Source of the DNA: a virus
Length of the DNA stretch: 37,955 bases
Direction: 5' to 3' (one strand)
IMG/VR virus record: IMGVR_UViG_3300024273_001131
Location: 1-37,955 of that record
The translations under genes were made by a program, and so were the position numbers. This document shows, in pieces, positions 25,515 to 37,955 of this stretch. The notes under the pieces are model-generated. The model had not been told where the DNA came from. It did no database searches and worked only from the letters and a program-made list of their open reading frames with translations. Position 1 is the first letter of the stretch. Each line of letters begins with the position of its first letter.

Positions 25515-25883
25515 ATGAAAACATTTATAGATTACATATCAGAACAAGAATCAACTGATTTAGAATTAAAGATTCTTTTAGAATCGTTAGAATCAGAATG
25601 GAGCGATGAACTAGAAGCTAAAGTTGATATGGCTTTAGAATCTTTTATGTCGACTTACAAGAATGAAGATGGTTCTTATAATATCCATGAATTTAATGAA
25701 GAACTTACTAATGAAGGTATTTTAGGATCTATTTTTGGAGGTCTTGCTGGTTTTGCGCTAGGTAAAACTGTCGGTAAGACTGTTGCAAAGATCTTAGGTA
25801 TTGAAAAAGGAATCTTTTATGATATGTTAACTTCGAGACTTGTAGGTGCTGCCTTAGGATCTGCTCTCGCTAATAAAATATAA
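25515..25883 (+). CDS. small protein with capsid-targeting-like N-terminus and glycine-zipper C-terminus
   Basis: This protein is 122 aa. It opens MKTFIDYISEQ, closely resembling the capsid-targeting sequence of T4 internal proteins (MKTYxEFIxE type). Residues 12-65 are acidic and helical and include the candidate prohead-protease site LLE23|S24; LTNE67|G68 is a weaker candidate. The C-terminus (68-122) is hydrophobic and glycine-rich, with small residues spaced as in glycine zippers (GSIFGGLAGFALG, then VGAALGSALAN), able to form paired membrane helices. It directly abuts the RuvC-like gene. I infer an internal virion protein that may act on membranes; the function is unproven. Confidence 0.6.
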   Translation: MKTFIDYISEQESTDLELKILLESLESEWSDELEAKVDMALESFMSTYKNEDGSYNIHEFNEELTNEGILGSIFGGLAGFALGKTVGKTVAKILGIEKGIFYDMLTSRLVGAALGSALANKI

Positions 25884-31175: not shown

Positions 31176-32849
31176 ATGGCTGAAGTTAATAAAATTAATT
31201 CATTTAAATCATTTACTGAAATTAAAGCGCAAGGTAGCGCTTTAAAACTAAGAGAAGAGAATCAAACAAAAAGACAAGAATTAGCAAGTAATTTTACTTC
31301 AATTCTTGATGAAATGGGTATCACTAGTCTTGCTGAATTAGACGAAGAAACGCAAAAAACATTTATCTCTAAAGTATTAGGTAAAGAAGTTAATGAAGGA
31401 AACGCATTCGTATATGCTGCTTCTAAGGCAAAAGCTGCTGGAGAAACAGAATTTGAATTTAATGGTAAAACATATAAAGTAACTATTAAAGATACTGGTG
31501 TTAAAGAATCTGAAGTTGTTGAAGAAGGAAATGCATTCGGAGACGCTGTTAAAAAGGCAAAAGAAGCTGGAGAGAAAGAATTTGAATTTGAAGGAGAAAC
31601 CTTTAAAGTAGAAGAATCAGCAGTTACTGAAGCTAAATTCGTAAAAGAATTTAACAAAGAAGTCTTAGATGCTAAAACTGAAGCAGAGATTTTAGCAATT
31701 TATCCTAAAGCACAATTCTTTAAAGGTAAGCACTCTCACTTTTTTGGAGAACTTGACGAAAACTTATTCTTTAAAGCCTATTATACAAATGGCAGTGAAT
31801 TTAAAATTAATTCAGTATACTCTGAAAAAAATAAAGACTATGTTCACTTATATAATGAATCAGTAGTTACTGAAGAGGAGAATCCATGTTGGGATGATTA
31901 TAAAGTAGGAGATCCTAAAACAAAAATATCTTCTAGAAGCGGCAAAAGAGTTAATAACTGCGTTCCTAAAAATGAATCATTTGTTACCGAAGCCTCGATG
32001 TCTGATATTGATCAAATGGCACAAGATTCAAAAGATTTTAAAAGTTTTGTAAAAGAATTTACAAAAACACACCGTGACCTGTCTACCGCCGGAGAACCTG
32101 GACAATTTATGGACTGGTTACAATCGATATATGATGGAGCTAAAGAAAACATGGAAGAATCTGTTGTTACTGAAGGTAAGGCCGACTATATGGCTAAATA
32201 TAAAGATACTAATATTAATTTAAAGAAGGCATACAATCATCTTAATGATGAAGAATTAAACCAACTCTATCTTGAGATTGGCGAATTGGTATCAGGTAAT
32301 AAATTAAAAGTTAAGGATGTTACATTAGTATTTGAATCAGAACTCACCGAAGGTGCTAAAGAAGATGCATTATATAGAAAACAACAATTAGCTACATTAA
32401 AAAACGCTAAAAAAGATAAATCTAAAAAGATGACAATCGAATTAGATTGGATGCTAGACGAAGAGCCTTTATCAGGTAAACAATTCGTGTCTGATATGAA
32501 AAAGTTTTCAATTTCTGTAGGAGAACCTACAAAGTCAAACGACGAATACAGCGGTAGCGAGTATGTTGTTAAATTTACAGGTTCTAGAGATAGCTTAAAG
32601 AAACTTATTGATAAATATTATGGCGGAGATTCTGAAACATATCTTGATGAAGCAAAAAAGGTTTTAGTTAACGAAGCTGAAATAAAATCTGATGATGAAT
32701 TTAAAGAGTATGCATTCACTGTGTTAAAAAACGCATTTGAATCAGATTTCGATGAAGCAAAAGCAGAAGAAATAGTTTCTGGAATACTAGCTAAAGTTGA
32801 TGGAGATTACGGAGCAGCAGTGGGCATGCTAACAAGTTCATTAGCATAA
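31176..32849 (+). CDS. putative prohead core/internal-head polyprotein with repeated protease sites
   Basis: This protein is 557 aa with no single recognised fold. It contains a regular series of T4-prohead-protease-type sites, [VLI]-x-E before G/A: VNE74|G, VEE117|G, VTE152|A, VTE272|A, VTE333|G, LTE392|G, VNE500|A. There is also VTE233|E, and a weaker site at LDE492|A. Cutting would give pieces of about 74, 43, 35, 81, 39, 61, 59, 108 and 57 aa. Pieces 2 and 3 are duplicates (GNAF...AGE.EFEF). Piece 5 has a CWDDYK...NCVP motif. The N-terminus has a targeting-like SFKSFTEI. It is highly charged. It starts the head-cargo cluster and ends at a terminator. Its identity as a scaffold or internal protein precursor is inferred. 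Confidence 0.65.
   Translation: MAEVNKINSFKSFTEIKAQGSALKLREENQTKRQELASNFTSILDEMGITSLAELDEETQKTFISKVLGKEVNEGNAFVYAASKAKAAGETEFEFNGKTYKVTIKDTGVKESEVVEEGNAFGDAVKKAKEAGEKEFEFEGETFKVEESAVTEAKFVKEFNKEVLDAKTEAEILAIYPKAQFFKGKHSHFFGELDENLFFKAYYTNGSEFKINSVYSEKNKDYVHLYNESVVTEEENPCWDDYKVGDPKTKISSRSGKRVNNCVPKNESFVTEASMSDIDQMAQDSKDFKSFVKEFTKTHRDLSTAGEPGQFMDWLQSIYDGAKENMEESVVTEGKADYMAKYKDTNINLKKAYNHLNDEELNQLYLEIGELVSGNKLKVKDVTLVFESELTEGAKEDALYRKQQLATLKNAKKDKSKKMTIELDWMLDEEPLSGKQFVSDMKKFSISVGEPTKSNDEYSGSEYVVKFTGSRDSLKKLIDKYYGGDSETYLDEAKKVLVNEAEIKSDDEFKEYAFTVLKNAFESDFDEAKAEEIVSGILAKVDGDYGAAVGMLTSSLA
31398..31631 (+). repeat. tandem duplication of a protease-bounded module
   Basis: Copy 1 (31398-31526, residues 75-117) and copy 2 (31527-31631, residues 118-152) both begin GNAF, keep AKAAGE/AKEAGE and EFEF, and end at an xxE site. 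The duplication unit coincides with the predicted cleavage unit. Confidence 0.7.
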
Positions 32850-32897: not shown

Positions 32898-32932
32898 GTT
32901 TATATTTGCCTATAATTAAAATAATAAAGAAC

Positions 32933-34222
32933 ATGAAAAAAAGAATACTAGGTTTCTCAGACTTCATATCAGAAAGAGAAAACAGATTAATGATTGAAAC
33001 ATTAATTCTTGAAGGTGGTGCAGCAGGACACATGCAGCATCCATTCGATGATGCTTCATTAACATTCGGAGACTTTAAAGAAATGATAAATGCAGGACTT
33101 CAAGGTAGTTTAGATTTTGAAGAAGAGACCACAGAAAAAACAGATGGTCAAAATGTATTTGCAACAGTAGTAGATGGCCAAGTTAAATTTGCTAGAAATA
33201 AAACTGAATTAAAATATCCAATGGATCTTTCATCATTTAAATCTAAATTCGAAGGACACCCTAGTAAACTTGTACAAGATACATTTCAATTTGCAGCAGA
33301 AGATTTAGCAAAGCAATTATCTAAATTATCAAGCAGTGATCAGTTAAAATATTTTAATAATGGAACTTCATTCATGAACATGGAGTTAATATATTCTAAA
33401 AATCCAAATGTAATTTATTACGATAGAGATATTATACAATTCCATGGAATTAAACACACAGATGGCGAAGGTAATATTATTGGAGAAGATACAAAACCTG
33501 CAAAAGAAATTGCAGCAATTTTAAAAAGCCTAAAAGCTGACATAGGAAACACATTTACTGTAATACCTCCACAGGTAATTCAAATGCATAAAGATCTTAA
33601 TTTTGATGAAAACAAATCTAAGTTTATTAAAAAAGTAGAAGATCTTAAAAAGACATTTAATTTAACAGATGCTGATGAAGTTTCAAGATATCATGAGATG
33701 TGGTGGAGAGATCAAATTGAAAAGAATTTTCCAGATTTATCCCAAACGTTTAAAGAAGGTTTGTTATTAAGATGGGCGTATGACGACAAGAAAACTCTTA
33801 ACATAAGAGCACTTGATAAAGAACTTGGAAAGGATAAAGCAGACTTGATTAAGAAATTTGATAAAGAGGATGTTAAAAAGAAATATAAAGAAAACATTAG
33901 ACCATTCGAAGACCTTTTCTTAGAGTTAGGAAGTGTTATCTTAAAGAATGCAAGTAATTTTGTTGCTGCAAATCCTGCTGCTGAAATGCAACGTTTACAT
34001 ACTCAAATTAGAACAGAAGCTGACAAAATTAAGCTAAACGGAAGTACTGAACAGATATTAAAAGTACAATCAGAGCTTGAGCGTTTAAATAGAATTGGCG
34101 GTATTGAATCAATTATTCCAACTGAAGGAATAGTGTTCACATACAAAGGAAAGATATTTAAATTAACTGGAACCTTTGCAGCAATTAATCAATTAATGGG
34201 AATCATAAAATACGGAAGATAA
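32933..34222 (+). CDS. ligase-like nucleotidyltransferase with capsid-targeting-like N-terminus
   Basis: This protein is 429 aa from ATG at 32933; an upstream TTG at 32906 in the same frame overlaps the region just past the terminator and is rejected. Motifs of the covalent nucleotidyltransferase (DNA/RNA ligase) superfamily are visible: EKTDG with candidate adenylated Lys69 (68-72), FMNMELIY with Glu151, EGIVF (398-402) as motif IV, and KIFKLTG (407-413) as motif V. The N-terminus GFSDFISE (7-14) resembles the T4 capsid-targeting sequence, and ILE27|G28 is a candidate prohead-protease site, so the mature enzyme would start at Gly28. An RNA ligase is more likely than a replicative DNA ligase, but the substrate cannot be read from sequence. 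Confidence 0.65.
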   Translation: MKKRILGFSDFISERENRLMIETLILEGGAAGHMQHPFDDASLTFGDFKEMINAGLQGSLDFEEETTEKTDGQNVFATVVDGQVKFARNKTELKYPMDLSSFKSKFEGHPSKLVQDTFQFAAEDLAKQLSKLSSSDQLKYFNNGTSFMNMELIYSKNPNVIYYDRDIIQFHGIKHTDGEGNIIGEDTKPAKEIAAILKSLKADIGNTFTVIPPQVIQMHKDLNFDENKSKFIKKVEDLKKTFNLTDADEVSRYHEMWWRDQIEKNFPDLSQTFKEGLLLRWAYDDKKTLNIRALDKELGKDKADLIKKFDKEDVKKKYKENIRPFEDLFLELGSVILKNASNFVAANPAAEMQRLHTQIRTEADKIKLNGSTEQILKVQSELERLNRIGGIESIIPTEGIVFTYKGKIFKLTGTFAAINQLMGIIKYGR

Positions 34223-34224
34223 TA

Positions 34225-36099
34225 ATGGCACTACAAAAACTTAGAGAATATTTTCAAGCAGCTAATTCAAATGAATTTAATGATTTATTAAAGAATAGAG
34301 TATTAGTCACTGAAAAAATAGCTGCACCGTCACTACATATCCAGAGAGAAAATACAGGCTTTAAATACTATAAGACAGGAAGCAACTCTCCGGTGAATAT
34401 AGTAGATAGGACTATTATTTCATTATATGAAATTGCAATAAATCACATGCAAAGTCTTTCTTTGGATAAAAAAAATCAATTGCCAATTGATTGGAGATTT
34501 GGCTTTGAGTATTTGCCAGAACTTAATGTTTCCAAAATAGAATATGCCAAAGTACCTGAAAATAATTTAATCTTAACACATATCCAACAGATTGGAGAAA
34601 ATGGTAAAGTTAAGAAAACCATTAACGATCCAATTATTTTAAACAAGTGGAAAAATGTACTAGAAGTCCAAGGACCTAGTATAATATTTGATGGGTATTT
34701 AAATGAGTTGCAGAAAACAGAGTTGTTAGAGTTGTTAGAAATGAACGACAAGTCGTTTGGAGACAGCTTCGACTATTTAGTAGAAACTGAAGATAAAACA
34801 TCATTTACTAAAAAAATTATTAAACTATTTAATCCAAATGAAAGAGCCTCAATACTTCACGAGGATCTAGAGCACGAAATTGATGGATTAATTATTAATT
34901 TTATTGATGGAAAAACTACTTCATCTTTTAAATTAGAAGACTTTAATAGATCTAAAATTAATGAAACAACTTCAGCAAGTCACATGTATCAAATTACAAT
35001 TGCTGATTTGTTAGAGTATTTAGTATCTTATGATTTAGGAGAAATAGTACTTGAAGAAGAAAACGCAGGAAACAGATACATCGAATTAATGTCGGTTTTA
35101 TTTAATGGGTACATTGAAAAGAATGCAACTAAATTTGTTGGAGTTAATTTTGAAAATGCGGAATTTTCTGAGTCTAATTCTTTTAAATTAAATCCTAAGT
35201 ATATTACCAATGAAAAGACTTTAAAACATATCCAAAATGACGTGTTATCAGAACTTTTTAAAATAACACTAAGTTCATTTAGAAAGAAGAGAAATAAAAC
35301 AACTGACATAATCAATCAAGACATGTTAGATAGGATGAATGAAATCATTGAGAATATCGACACTAAGATATTTGTTGAAAATACTGATGAAAATGCCATA
35401 TATGATTATCAAAACTTTATCATGCATAATAAAATTAAAAGCTCTGTTAATTTAAACGAGGCACTTAAAGTAAATCATACAGAACAGGGTAAAGAATTAG
35501 TAAATATGTTTGTTGGAAGATTTCAACCATTCACATTAGGACATGCAAAGGTATTAGAAACAATTTACAAAGAGAACGGATATCCAGTGATTGTATTTTT
35601 AGTAAAATCAAAAACTGTTAAAAAAGGAGAAGAGTTTAGCAAACCATATGATGAGGCAACTCAGATTAAAATGTTTAATGAAGTAAAGAAACAATATAAA
35701 TTCTTAAAAGAAATTAAAATAATTCCAACTGGAGCTATTGATACGATGTTTAATGAACTTAGACCTAAATACGAACCTGTTCTTTGGGGAACCGGAAGTG
35801 ATAGATTAAAAAGTTATGGTTTTCAAGTAAACAATGATTCTTATAGAGACCAATTAAATGCAAGAGCTGATTTTGGACTTTTTGAAATACCAAGAACCGA
35901 TGATAATATATCAGCAACTCAGGTTAGAAATGCCTTATTAGATGGTGATGAAAGGACATTTCAACAAATGACACCGAAGGCAATTCACGGAATGTACAAA
36001 GAATTAAAATCAAAATTAGAAGATGCAGTCGGAGTCACTTCAGAATCTCTAGTGATTGAAGGTTTAATGACGTTCGAACAATTCATGAAAAAACTATAA
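34225..36099 (+). CDS. ligase-like domain fused to nucleotide adenylyl/cytidylyltransferase, C-terminal tag
   Basis: This protein is 624 aa. Residues 1-250 look ligase-like: EKIAAPSLHI with Lys31 (the usual KxDG is degenerate), RFGFEYLP with Glu95, DGLIINF (220-226), and a FKLEDF motif (235-240). Residues about 425-600 are a nucleotidyltransferase: GRFQPFTLGH (431-440, a TxGH-type motif) and ISATQVR (562-568, ISxTxxR), as in NMN adenylyltransferases and cytidylyltransferases. A site LNE412|A lies between the two domains, and VIE612|G precedes a C-terminal tag MTFEQFMKKL. Cleavage would yield two separate enzymes plus the tag. It starts 2 nt after the preceding ligase-like gene. The substrate (NMN or another) is unknown. 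Confidence 0.65.
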   Translation: MALQKLREYFQAANSNEFNDLLKNRVLVTEKIAAPSLHIQRENTGFKYYKTGSNSPVNIVDRTIISLYEIAINHMQSLSLDKKNQLPIDWRFGFEYLPELNVSKIEYAKVPENNLILTHIQQIGENGKVKKTINDPIILNKWKNVLEVQGPSIIFDGYLNELQKTELLELLEMNDKSFGDSFDYLVETEDKTSFTKKIIKLFNPNERASILHEDLEHEIDGLIINFIDGKTTSSFKLEDFNRSKINETTSASHMYQITIADLLEYLVSYDLGEIVLEEENAGNRYIELMSVLFNGYIEKNATKFVGVNFENAEFSESNSFKLNPKYITNEKTLKHIQNDVLSELFKITLSSFRKKRNKTTDIINQDMLDRMNEIIENIDTKIFVENTDENAIYDYQNFIMHNKIKSSVNLNEALKVNHTEQGKELVNMFVGRFQPFTLGHAKVLETIYKENGYPVIVFLVKSKTVKKGEEFSKPYDEATQIKMFNEVKKQYKFLKEIKIIPTGAIDTMFNELRPKYEPVLWGTGSDRLKSYGFQVNNDSYRDQLNARADFGLFEIPRTDDNISATQVRNALLDGDERTFQQMTPKAIHGMYKELKSKLEDAVGVTSESLVIEGLMTFEQFMKKL

Positions 36100-36134: not shown

Positions 36135-37955
36135 ATGGAATCTAAAAAATCATTTGATCAGTATGTTAAAGAATCATTAGCAATGCTAAATGAGGCTAAA
36201 AAAGAAGCTGGTCTTTCAAAGGAAGAAACTTTAGTAGTTGCACAAAAATTTGCAGATGCAATGTCTAAAGCAGACAACGCAAAAGTTACTGTTAATAAAA
36301 GAACATTAGAGGAAGATTCATTTGACCTTGATGTTAATGGAGAAGAATATGACGGAGGATCTTATATAATTTACCAAAACGGTGATGTGATGAATGCTGC
36401 TGTTCCAGGTAATCCAATATACGGTAAGAAAAATGATACTGTAGATACTATTGCCAAGAATATGAAAAAAATGATTGGTGAATCTTTTGTTAAAGAAGGA
36501 GTTGACATGGAAGAATTACAAGATACATTAAAAAGAGTTAAAAAAGAAAATCCTGGTAAAAAAATAGGATACGCTTTTATCAAAGATGCATCAAAAGGAT
36601 ATAAGATTTCAATTAACGGAGAATATGTTAATGAATCATCTGATACTGAATCATTATATAATGTAATTGACAAAAAATCAGGTGAAGTAATGAGCGATGA
36701 ACCTCTTAAAAAAGATTTAGCAAAGAAATTTGCTGCTAAAAAAACAGGATGGATTATTCAAGTTAATGAATCGCTAGTTACTGAAGGTAGAGTTACTCTT
36801 AAAAGAAGATACACTGAAAATCATCCAGCAGTTACCGTTGGTAAAAATGCTACTATTAGAAATAAAGTACTAGAAGCAATAAAAGACGGAAAAATATCAC
36901 AAGAACAATTTGATAATATTGTTTCTGAATTATCAAATGATTCTAAAAGATGGACTAAAAGTAATTCAAAATATTTTAGTGTTTCTGAAGAAGGAGTTTC
37001 TTTATCAAAATTCGGAAGAAAGGTATTAAATAGTGTTACTGTCAACGAAGCAACTACAAAAAATCCAGAAATATGGGTTCCTGGTGGATTTGACAAAGAA
37101 GTAAGCAAAATACCAAACCAAAAAATAGATGTTGCAACTATTACTAAAATAGCAAAAAAATATGATGTCGATATCGATGATGCAATTGCATACGTTGAAT
37201 ATGGATGGGATATTGACTTATCAGAAAACACAAACACAAATATGAAAACAAAATTTATTTATGAATCATTTGGAGAATTTGTAAACTCCTTAAATGAATC
37301 TACTTTAAACGAGGCTTTTGCTTCTGCAAAGCTTGCAAGCATTTTAACTGGAGCTAATAAAATGGACAAGGATCTTCCATCTGCGTTTTATAGCATGTCA
37401 AAATTAGCACTTGATAAAATTCAAGATATTGATATTATTGAAATGACACCAGATCAAGCAAAGAAGGAGAAAAGAGCAAGCGCAGTTTACCTTTATTTCA
37501 CTACAAATGAAAAGGAAAACCCGTATGCAGGAAAAAGTTCTTATAATAAACATACAATCCCATCGAATACATTATTAGCAATCACAGATGGTTCAAATGA
37601 GTGGATGGCAACTGAATGGCAAAGATCTTATACTGGAGACAAGAAATCAATAAGAACTTTAAAAACTACAAAAAGAGATGATTCTGACGGTATTGATAAA
37701 TCAGGTGCAAGCAATCAATACGGTTCAGGTATTTCAAGCATGAAACAAGTTGTTGATTTAGCAGACAGAGCATACTGTTTAGATTTAACAGTTCTTAAAG
37801 CAAGATATTCTACACTAGCACAAAAAGATGAAAGATCTGCTGCTAAAAAAGGAGCAACAGCATTCATGAATGACAAAGAATTTAAAGCTGAAAATAAGAA
37901 AAGATATAATGACATTCTAGCTTCTAAAGCCGCTACAATGCCAATGGAGATCGGA
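36135..37955 (+). CDS. second putative head polyprotein (partial, runs off the window)
   Basis: An open frame from ATG at 36135 reads 607 codons with no stop to the window edge, so it is 3'-truncated. It begins with a targeting-like motif (SFDQYVKES, 6-14) and LNE20|A. More [VL]-x-E sites follow: VKE121|G, VNE167|S, VNE212|S, VTE217|G, VNE305|A, LNE388|S, LNE393|A. Met370 begins a second targeting-like stretch (MKTKFIYESFGEFV) after an A-rich context, so this may be a fusion of two internal proteins or contain an internal start at 37242. It is charged, Lys- and Glu-rich, with no enzymatic motif recognised. Role inferred as prohead core or cargo. Confidence 0.65.
   Translation, partial: MESKKSFDQYVKESLAMLNEAKKEAGLSKEETLVVAQKFADAMSKADNAKVTVNKRTLEEDSFDLDVNGEEYDGGSYIIYQNGDVMNAAVPGNPIYGKKNDTVDTIAKNMKKMIGESFVKEGVDMEELQDTLKRVKKENPGKKIGYAFIKDASKGYKISINGEYVNESSDTESLYNVIDKKSGEVMSDEPLKKDLAKKFAAKKTGWIIQVNESLVTEGRVTLKRRYTENHPAVTVGKNATIRNKVLEAIKDGKISQEQFDNIVSELSNDSKRWTKSNSKYFSVSEEGVSLSKFGRKVLNSVTVNEATTKNPEIWVPGGFDKEVSKIPNQKIDVATITKIAKKYDVDIDDAIAYVEYGWDIDLSENTNTNMKTKFIYESFGEFVNSLNESTLNEAFASAKLASILTGANKMDKDLPSAFYSMSKLALDKIQDIDIIEMTPDQAKKEKRASAVYLYFTTNEKENPYAGKSSYNKHTIPSNTLLAITDGSNEWMATEWQRSYTGDKKSIRTLKTTKRDDSDGIDKSGASNQYGSGISSMKQVVDLADRAYCLDLTVLKARYSTLAQKDERSAAKKGATAFMNDKEFKAENKKRYNDILASKAATMPMEIG

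Follow-up and report, generated by a model that had tools for sequence, protein, structure and literature searches.

The gene at positions 34225-36099 of the DNA analysed here (37,955 bases in its whole length, hereafter the window) encodes, with a probability of roughly 0.7, a polyprotein that a T4-like phage loads into its head as cargo, recruiting it by tags and cutting it at LNE412 with a gp21-type protease (the bar in LNE412|A and in other sites marks the predicted cut). From computed folds, disorder, motif conservation and natural rearrangements, we infer recruitment, cleavage, ejection and function as follows. The chain would be brought to the prohead core by short helical tags in the linker and at the C-terminus, a role played for the T4 internal proteins by the N-terminal capsid targeting sequence (CTS). 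During head maturation, a gp21-type S77 protease would cut the disordered linker after LNE412, leaving an RNA-ligase-fold domain with a tag at its C-terminus and an NMN adenylyltransferase (NMNAT) with its own C-terminal tag. The phage would eject both parts together with its DNA. The NMNAT would then probably support NAD+ at once, and the ligase-fold part would probably act in RNA end binding or repair. The central idea of an initial annotation, an interdomain protease site combined with a C-terminal tag, stands on the grounds of the sequence comparisons below; the second site that it proposed does not.

Domain architecture of the chain

The window is a T4-like phage record whose annotated genes include gp32, primase, UvsY, UvsW and tail genes, and its source appears to be a large uncultured T4-like phage. 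The gene lies close to the uvsW/uvsY replication genes. Its translated ORF contains LNE412|A413, VIE612|G613 and the C-terminal GLMTFEQFMKKL. An RNA-ligase-fold domain comes first and is joined to an NMNAT domain by a disordered linker, in which LNE412|A lies; the tail that follows holds VIE612|G and MTFEQFMKKL (Table 1).

Table 1. Positions of the chain, its predicted elements and neighbouring genes in the window
Feature	Position	Strand	Basis
Tagged two-domain chain, 624 aa	34225-36099	+	ORF translation, as in the initial annotation
Domain 1 (aa 1-384), RNA ligase 2-like nucleotidyltransferase fold	34225..35376	+	Foldseek 2hvr; PF09414; motif census
Targeting-like helix in the linker, NAIYDYQNFIMH (aa 390-401), with the [FY]xx[FY] spacing of the T4 CTS	35392..35427	+	Conservation; model helix
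Predicted prohead-protease site LNE412|A413	35452..35463	+	Conservation; P3/P2 pattern
Domain 2 (aa 424-602), NMNAT/HxGH nucleotidylyltransferase	35494..36030	+	PF01467; Foldseek NMNAT/PPAT; conserved motifs
VIE612|G613, fits the site pattern, not conserved	36052..36063	+	Homolog comparison
C-terminal targeting-like tag MTFEQFMKKL (aa 615-624)	36067..36096	+	Motif kept in homologs; core matches G001 tags
Small protein, N-terminal tag MKTFIDYISE|Q of T4 type	25515..25883	+	Similar protein at G001 55734-56102
Upstream 557-aa protein	31176..32849	+	12 candidate protease sites, 2.9 expected; N-terminal SFKSFTEI
Sister ligase-fold gene	32906..34222	+	Intact KTDG; N-terminal tag GFSDFISE; LILE36|GG
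Predicted protease site LILE36|G37 of the sister gene	33002..33016	+	Family conservation
Downstream gene, runs off the window (709 aa in L001)	36135..37955	+	N-terminal SFDQYVKESLAMLNE|A; 12 candidate sites, 2.3 expected

The AlphaFold model, built on a shallow alignment of 24 sequences (mean pLDDT 77.6, pTM 0.56), contains two folded parts, with a disordered linker and a disordered segment before the tail. Residues 385-421 and 605-615 fell below pLDDT 50 (low-confidence, disordered), and LNE412|A and VIE612|G each lie within such a segment; short helices were modelled at 390-401 and 617-623. In a Foldseek search, the first part matched T4 RNA ligase 2 (2hvr; E 1e-7, probability 1.00), with a low TM-score for a query that was the full-length multidomain chain, and PF09414 RNA_ligase matched distant homologs below threshold. 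The second part matched PPAT/NMNAT structures, and PF01467 CTP_transf_like covered residues 428-569 above cut-off (E 4e-8). The domain search of the 624-aa chain returned no peptidase family.

Domain 1 shares its fold and, mostly, the motif I lysine with the T4 RNA ligase 2 family, but KxDG is degraded to KxAA, KxQA or KxSA in most members. The window chain has KIAA, and in the motif census K32 was retained in 72/81 sequences, the aspartate in 14/81 and the glycine in 21/81. Because KxDG is lost in most members, it is doubtful whether domain 1 can ligate. The motifs of domain 2 are intact in the window chain (GRFQPFTLGH and ISATQVR) and are common among the homologs (GRFQPFTLGH in 67/81, ISATxVR in most). 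The earlier description of two enzymes is uncertain; judging from the motifs of domain 1, the chain may be one enzyme with a ligase-fold partner.

A conserved predicted protease site in the linker

Scans of viral contigs, representing uncultured phages, yielded 80 distinct homologs at 27-71% identity. These are related by descent, so that the counts given here carry shared ancestry and are not independent; linker and tail motifs were counted over 77 homologs, the site alignment covered 70 clade members and the motif census 81 sequences. A scan of genome contigs found no relative from which to assign a host. The window chain contains two [LIVM]xE[AGS] sites, compared with 2.2 from shuffling, which makes their presence alone meaningless and leaves conservation and placement to carry the case.

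At the linker site, E|[AG][LN] was found in 67/70 clade members; the E|[AG] pattern served to locate the site and fixed P1 and P1', so the free evidence consists of P3/P2 and placement. P3 in these 67 members was always L (31), I (20), V (13) or M (3), and P2 was free (N 42, T 10, L 9, M 4, S 1, D 1). E412 required four parsimony steps, against a linker column mean of 15.4. Among the 17 homologs at 65-71% identity, LNEAL was invariant (17/17), while the L410 and A413 codons varied four ways and both ten-residue flanks of LNEAL also varied. The pattern [LIVM]xE[AGS] occurred in 74/77 linkers (10.2 expected), and a site lay in the linker of 25/28 representatives below 70% identity. Below about 35% identity, the site and the tail tag were lost or could not be aligned (L031, L036), and L027 has TFE|A. 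The proposed protease-type site between two separately folded domains is supported by its retention while P2 and the neighbouring residues vary; the accompanying prediction of conserved sites in both linker and tail came true for the linker, and failed for the tail and for the homologs below about 35% identity. A chance resemblance of such short motifs, with which the number of sites in the chain would agree, is hardly credible and is strongly disfavoured by their placement and conservation.

In the T4 CTS, targeting depends on residues 4 and 7, and processing on residues 8 and 10 (PMC9026906). The L/I/V-x-E|A/G pattern with a free P2 agrees with this role of residues 8 and 10, and the linker site, situated in an accessible segment, behaves like a gp21-type (S77) protease site in these comparisons.

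Targeting-like tags in the linker and at the C-terminus

The initial annotation missed a second targeting-like motif, at residues 390-401 of the linker. Its [FY]xx[FY] spacing was found in 77/77 homologs (13.7 expected from shuffling), for example as VMNFKQYLVNQKI, TIKTFSDYL and, in L244, ISSYDEFITE|A. The motif of the window clade, YDYQNFIM, scored poorly on the clade N-terminal PSSM; its reading as a tag comes from the T4 spacing, position and conservation.

At the tail, [FY]xx[FY] was kept in 67/77 homologs (9.8 expected), in agreement with the targeting-like character previously assigned to MTFEQFMKKL. The window copy, MTFEQFM, has its aromatics at i and i+3, as in a T4-type targeting peptide, where I, L or V comes next, and is itself weakened (p about 4e-4 per position on the PSSM, compared with about 4e-6 for MTFEQFIN of the orthologs). 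The orthologs end in MTFEQFINKDI, with the FEQFIN core at the very C-terminus and without an E for cutting, and this core is identical to the N-terminal tag core of about 30 genes of a 236-kb relative (G001). No N-terminal tag was recognised on the window chain, where KLREYFQA scored low on the PSSM.

VIE612|G, previously proposed as a site before the tail tag, was not conserved: STEI, TNEI, TNDI and SKET stand at the same place in homologs, and it was rejected as a general tail site, being essentially private to the window phage. VxE607|S/G was commoner, with [LIVM]xE[AGS] in 38/67 spacers (14.9 expected); the window chain has T at P3 of its VxE607 site and has lost the hydrophobic residue. 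A good site was mostly absent after the tail tag and only sometimes present before it, so the tag may stay on the mature protein.

The C-terminal tag could also be a functionless relic, formed when loss of a stop codon fused the start of a neighbouring CTS gene to the chain. In L032, a candidate C-terminal tag was rejected, since a stop codon intervenes and the tag is the start of the next gene; the tail is missing there, and the next gene starts with GTG, MKNLFNYTDFLSKNLNE|A, directly after the stop. This arrangement speaks for such a fusion, as does the DUF3008 gene of L247, which ends in MKHLQTFESFIADFK. A relic would decay, however, and TF..F is kept to about 45% identity while the preceding spacer varies, which makes a tag without function very improbable. 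Neighbour-gene fusion is plausible as the origin of the C-terminal tag.

Rearrangements around the motifs

Natural REARRANGEMENTS were observed among the homologs. In L245, L246 and L247, the chain stops behind the linker and has no NMNAT; an I[DE]E|[AS] site, the tag of the linker and that at the C-terminus are all retained. In L245, the sequence reads SVMPFKTYLNHQKLKTQESPIDE|ANLLTFSQFLDKKDI, with linker tag, site and C-terminal tag, and the NMNAT is gone. In L247, the NMNAT stands alone as a gene, and its N-terminal tag reads MKHVKLFEQFINE|ADV, with INE|A at the predicted cut. Conversely, L239, L249 and L251 extend past the tail tag into a third domain (L239 as LLTFNDFIFESARINE|AKKEG), with INE|A or ITE|S between the tag and the third domain in L239 and L251. 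These losses and gains of domains around the motifs support a modular organisation at the sequence level. In other phages (L038, L041 and L006-L009), domain 1 and the following motif are kept without a recognisable NMNAT, and L006-L009 also lack the lysine of motif I.

These rearrangements bear on whether the chain is cut at all. It might be packaged via its tags and work uncut as a bifunctional protein, with LNEAL serving as a hinge or a short contact helix. The P2' leucine is conserved like the glutamate (66/67), which a protease site does not need, and the site is absent from distant two-domain homologs, both of which fit an uncut chain. On the other side, hydrophobic P3, free P2 and small P1' form the gp21 pattern, the LNEAL segment is disordered in the model, and the site survives loss of the NMNAT (L245) and recurs before third domains. 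We consider an uncut chain unlikely and prefer cleavage at LNE412.

Tagged genes and head protease in relatives

In G001 (L132-L143), 35/327 ORFs scored as carrying an N-terminal tag, about 30 of them convincingly. The leader, MKHIKLFEQF[VIL]NE|[ASGK], resembles T4 MKTYQEFIAE|A, and the T4 IPIII tag MKTYQEFIAE, which lay outside the PSSM training, scored 12.4 (p 2e-5 per position). In the G005 contig (L144-L151), 19 ORFs exceeded the tag threshold, and most of the tested tag-leader genes of G001 and G005 were without a known family. The S77 protease PF03420 was found above the curated cut-off in 5/6 relative contigs; it was not seen within the 38-kb window fragment. A 640-aa ORF of G001 (L132:5510-7432, minus strand), with similar ORFs in G003, G005 and G006, combines the S77 protease with a long scaffold-like helical region and is, from its sequence, an apparent protease-scaffold fusion. 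It lies between portal-like and major-capsid-like genes, named from gene order and sequence.

G001 also encodes an Acb1-like anti-CBASS protein (L142:4974-5540, minus strand; G001 204974-205540; PF23474 above cut-off) with the N-terminal tag MKRIKLFEEFLNE|K. This counter-defence protein may be packaged in the head, and its predicted tag is in line with counter-defence and repair proteins being delivered alongside the DNA. C-terminal tags were present in two further gene families, one with LNE| right before the tag. A UPF0227 hydrolase (G001 217695-218204 and G005 140442-140951) ends in YLNE|MQRIKMFEEFKN[IL]D, that is, an enzyme, an LNE site and a C-terminal tag. In the DUF3008 gene (L011 12927-13595, G001 37762-38538, G005 86745-87293, L003 14260-14643 and L247 5233-5592), the tag is C-terminal in some phages and internal elsewhere, followed by NE|S and more sequence.

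Several window neighbours of the gene carry similar motifs. In the sister ligase-fold family, [LI]xE|GG is near-invariant and also occurs at the NMNAT/ligase junctions of fused homologs, standing behind short leaders or behind fused NMNAT parts about 200 to 1300 residues long. Microcystis phage Mel-JY01, of the NMNAT-fusion type, has IIAE|GG and is the only named isolate with the sister ligase domain among the phage records searched. This family (L044-L123) has 577+ viral-contig relatives, almost none in named isolates, with a conserved GGAxGHMxHPF after [LI]xE|; C or M replaces E in four listed members. The sister gene is listed with a TTG start, and the ATG at 32933 is probably the true start (MKKRILGFSDFISE). 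Residues 2-47 of its product are disordered in the model, and its closest folds, which are weak matches, are tRNA/RNA ligases. The 31176-32849 and 36135-37955 products, whose sites are often ESxVxE[AG] repeats, are possible head proteins cut to many peptides, judging from the predicted sites.

The motifs might instead dock elsewhere than at the prohead core, for example in an early-infection complex, the protein being a cytoplasmic RNA-repair/NAD enzyme. The position of the gene near uvsW/uvsY favours this, and the evidence for packaging presented here is indirect; against it, the motif followed by E|A/S/G is N-terminal in about 30 genes, like the proven T4 CTS, and the NMNAT of cyanophage S-CREM2 (gp154), encoded in the same uvsW neighbourhood as the window gene, is a virion protein (PMC10665884). 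Docking outside the head is accordingly a decidedly unlikely explanation, and recruitment to the prohead core is retained.

Comparison with known systems

T4 carries its known targeting peptide as a leader at the N-terminus. The window chain resembles the CTS-bearing, gp21-cut T4 proteins IPI-III and Alt in its aromatic-spaced short peptide, its [LI]xE| cleavage motif and the S77 family in its relatives. In contrast to the T4 CTS, which is N-terminal and removed, the tags of the window chain are internal and C-terminal, and the predicted site lies between two folded domains. The parallel with T4 CTS and gp21 held and the N-terminal position did not, so the arrangement would be a T4-type head-targeting system in a new form. 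The initial annotation called a C-terminal tag unlike the N-terminal tags of T4, which is true of the targeting tag; C-terminal removal does occur in T4, where gp21 takes C-terminal parts off Alt and gp21 itself (PMC9026906). In the literature searched, no paper linked a capsid targeting sequence with a huge phage, which does not by itself prove absence elsewhere.

NMNAT-like proteins of several cyanomyoviruses have been detected in virions by mass spectrometry, with the authors noting that co-purification could not be excluded (PMC10665884, PMC9602691). Two virion-detected cyanophage NMNATs start with MKNFSSFLTE|A and MKSFLQFLKE|A. S-CREM2 gp154 and S-SCSM1 ORF91 (NMNAT/cytidylyltransferases) are, like domain 2, tagged HxGH nucleotidylyltransferases of T4-like phages, but their tag is N-terminal and they lack a ligase-fold fusion. 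On sequence, the cyanophage NMNATs look like domain 2 as a stand-alone protein with its tag at the N-terminus. In the phage NAD+ enzymes NadM and NadR, the NMN adenylyltransferase domain, which they share with the window chain, has Nudix or kinase domains as fusion partners (PMC9503650); the partner of the window NMNAT is a ligase fold, and the chain carries tags.

Polyvalent proteins of the P1 DarA/DdrB class resemble the proposed cargo chain: they are multidomain phage proteins, packaged in heads and processed to units, and carry counter-defence domains. Their cutting is ascribed to a metallopeptidase domain of their own (PMC5512222), whereas the window chain is without a peptidase and the head protease is the candidate cutter.

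Implications for large T4-like phages

The C-terminal tag occurs in at least three gene families, and three-domain chains also exist. It seems slightly more probable than the opposite that large uncultured T4-like phages combine a position-independent head tag with head-protease sites to build modular cargo polyproteins, domain-tag-xxE|domain-tag(-xxE|domain), that are split in the prohead. If so, several early counter-defence or repair proteins would be delivered in a fixed ratio, and heads could be loaded with polyproteins through internal or C-terminal tags and interdomain protease sites. Cargo would then be predictable from sequence in unculturable phages, and a C-terminal tag would be available for loading proteins into heads. 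Whether the DNA arrives together with ready-made means for NAD+ supply and RNA-end handling thereby becomes testable.
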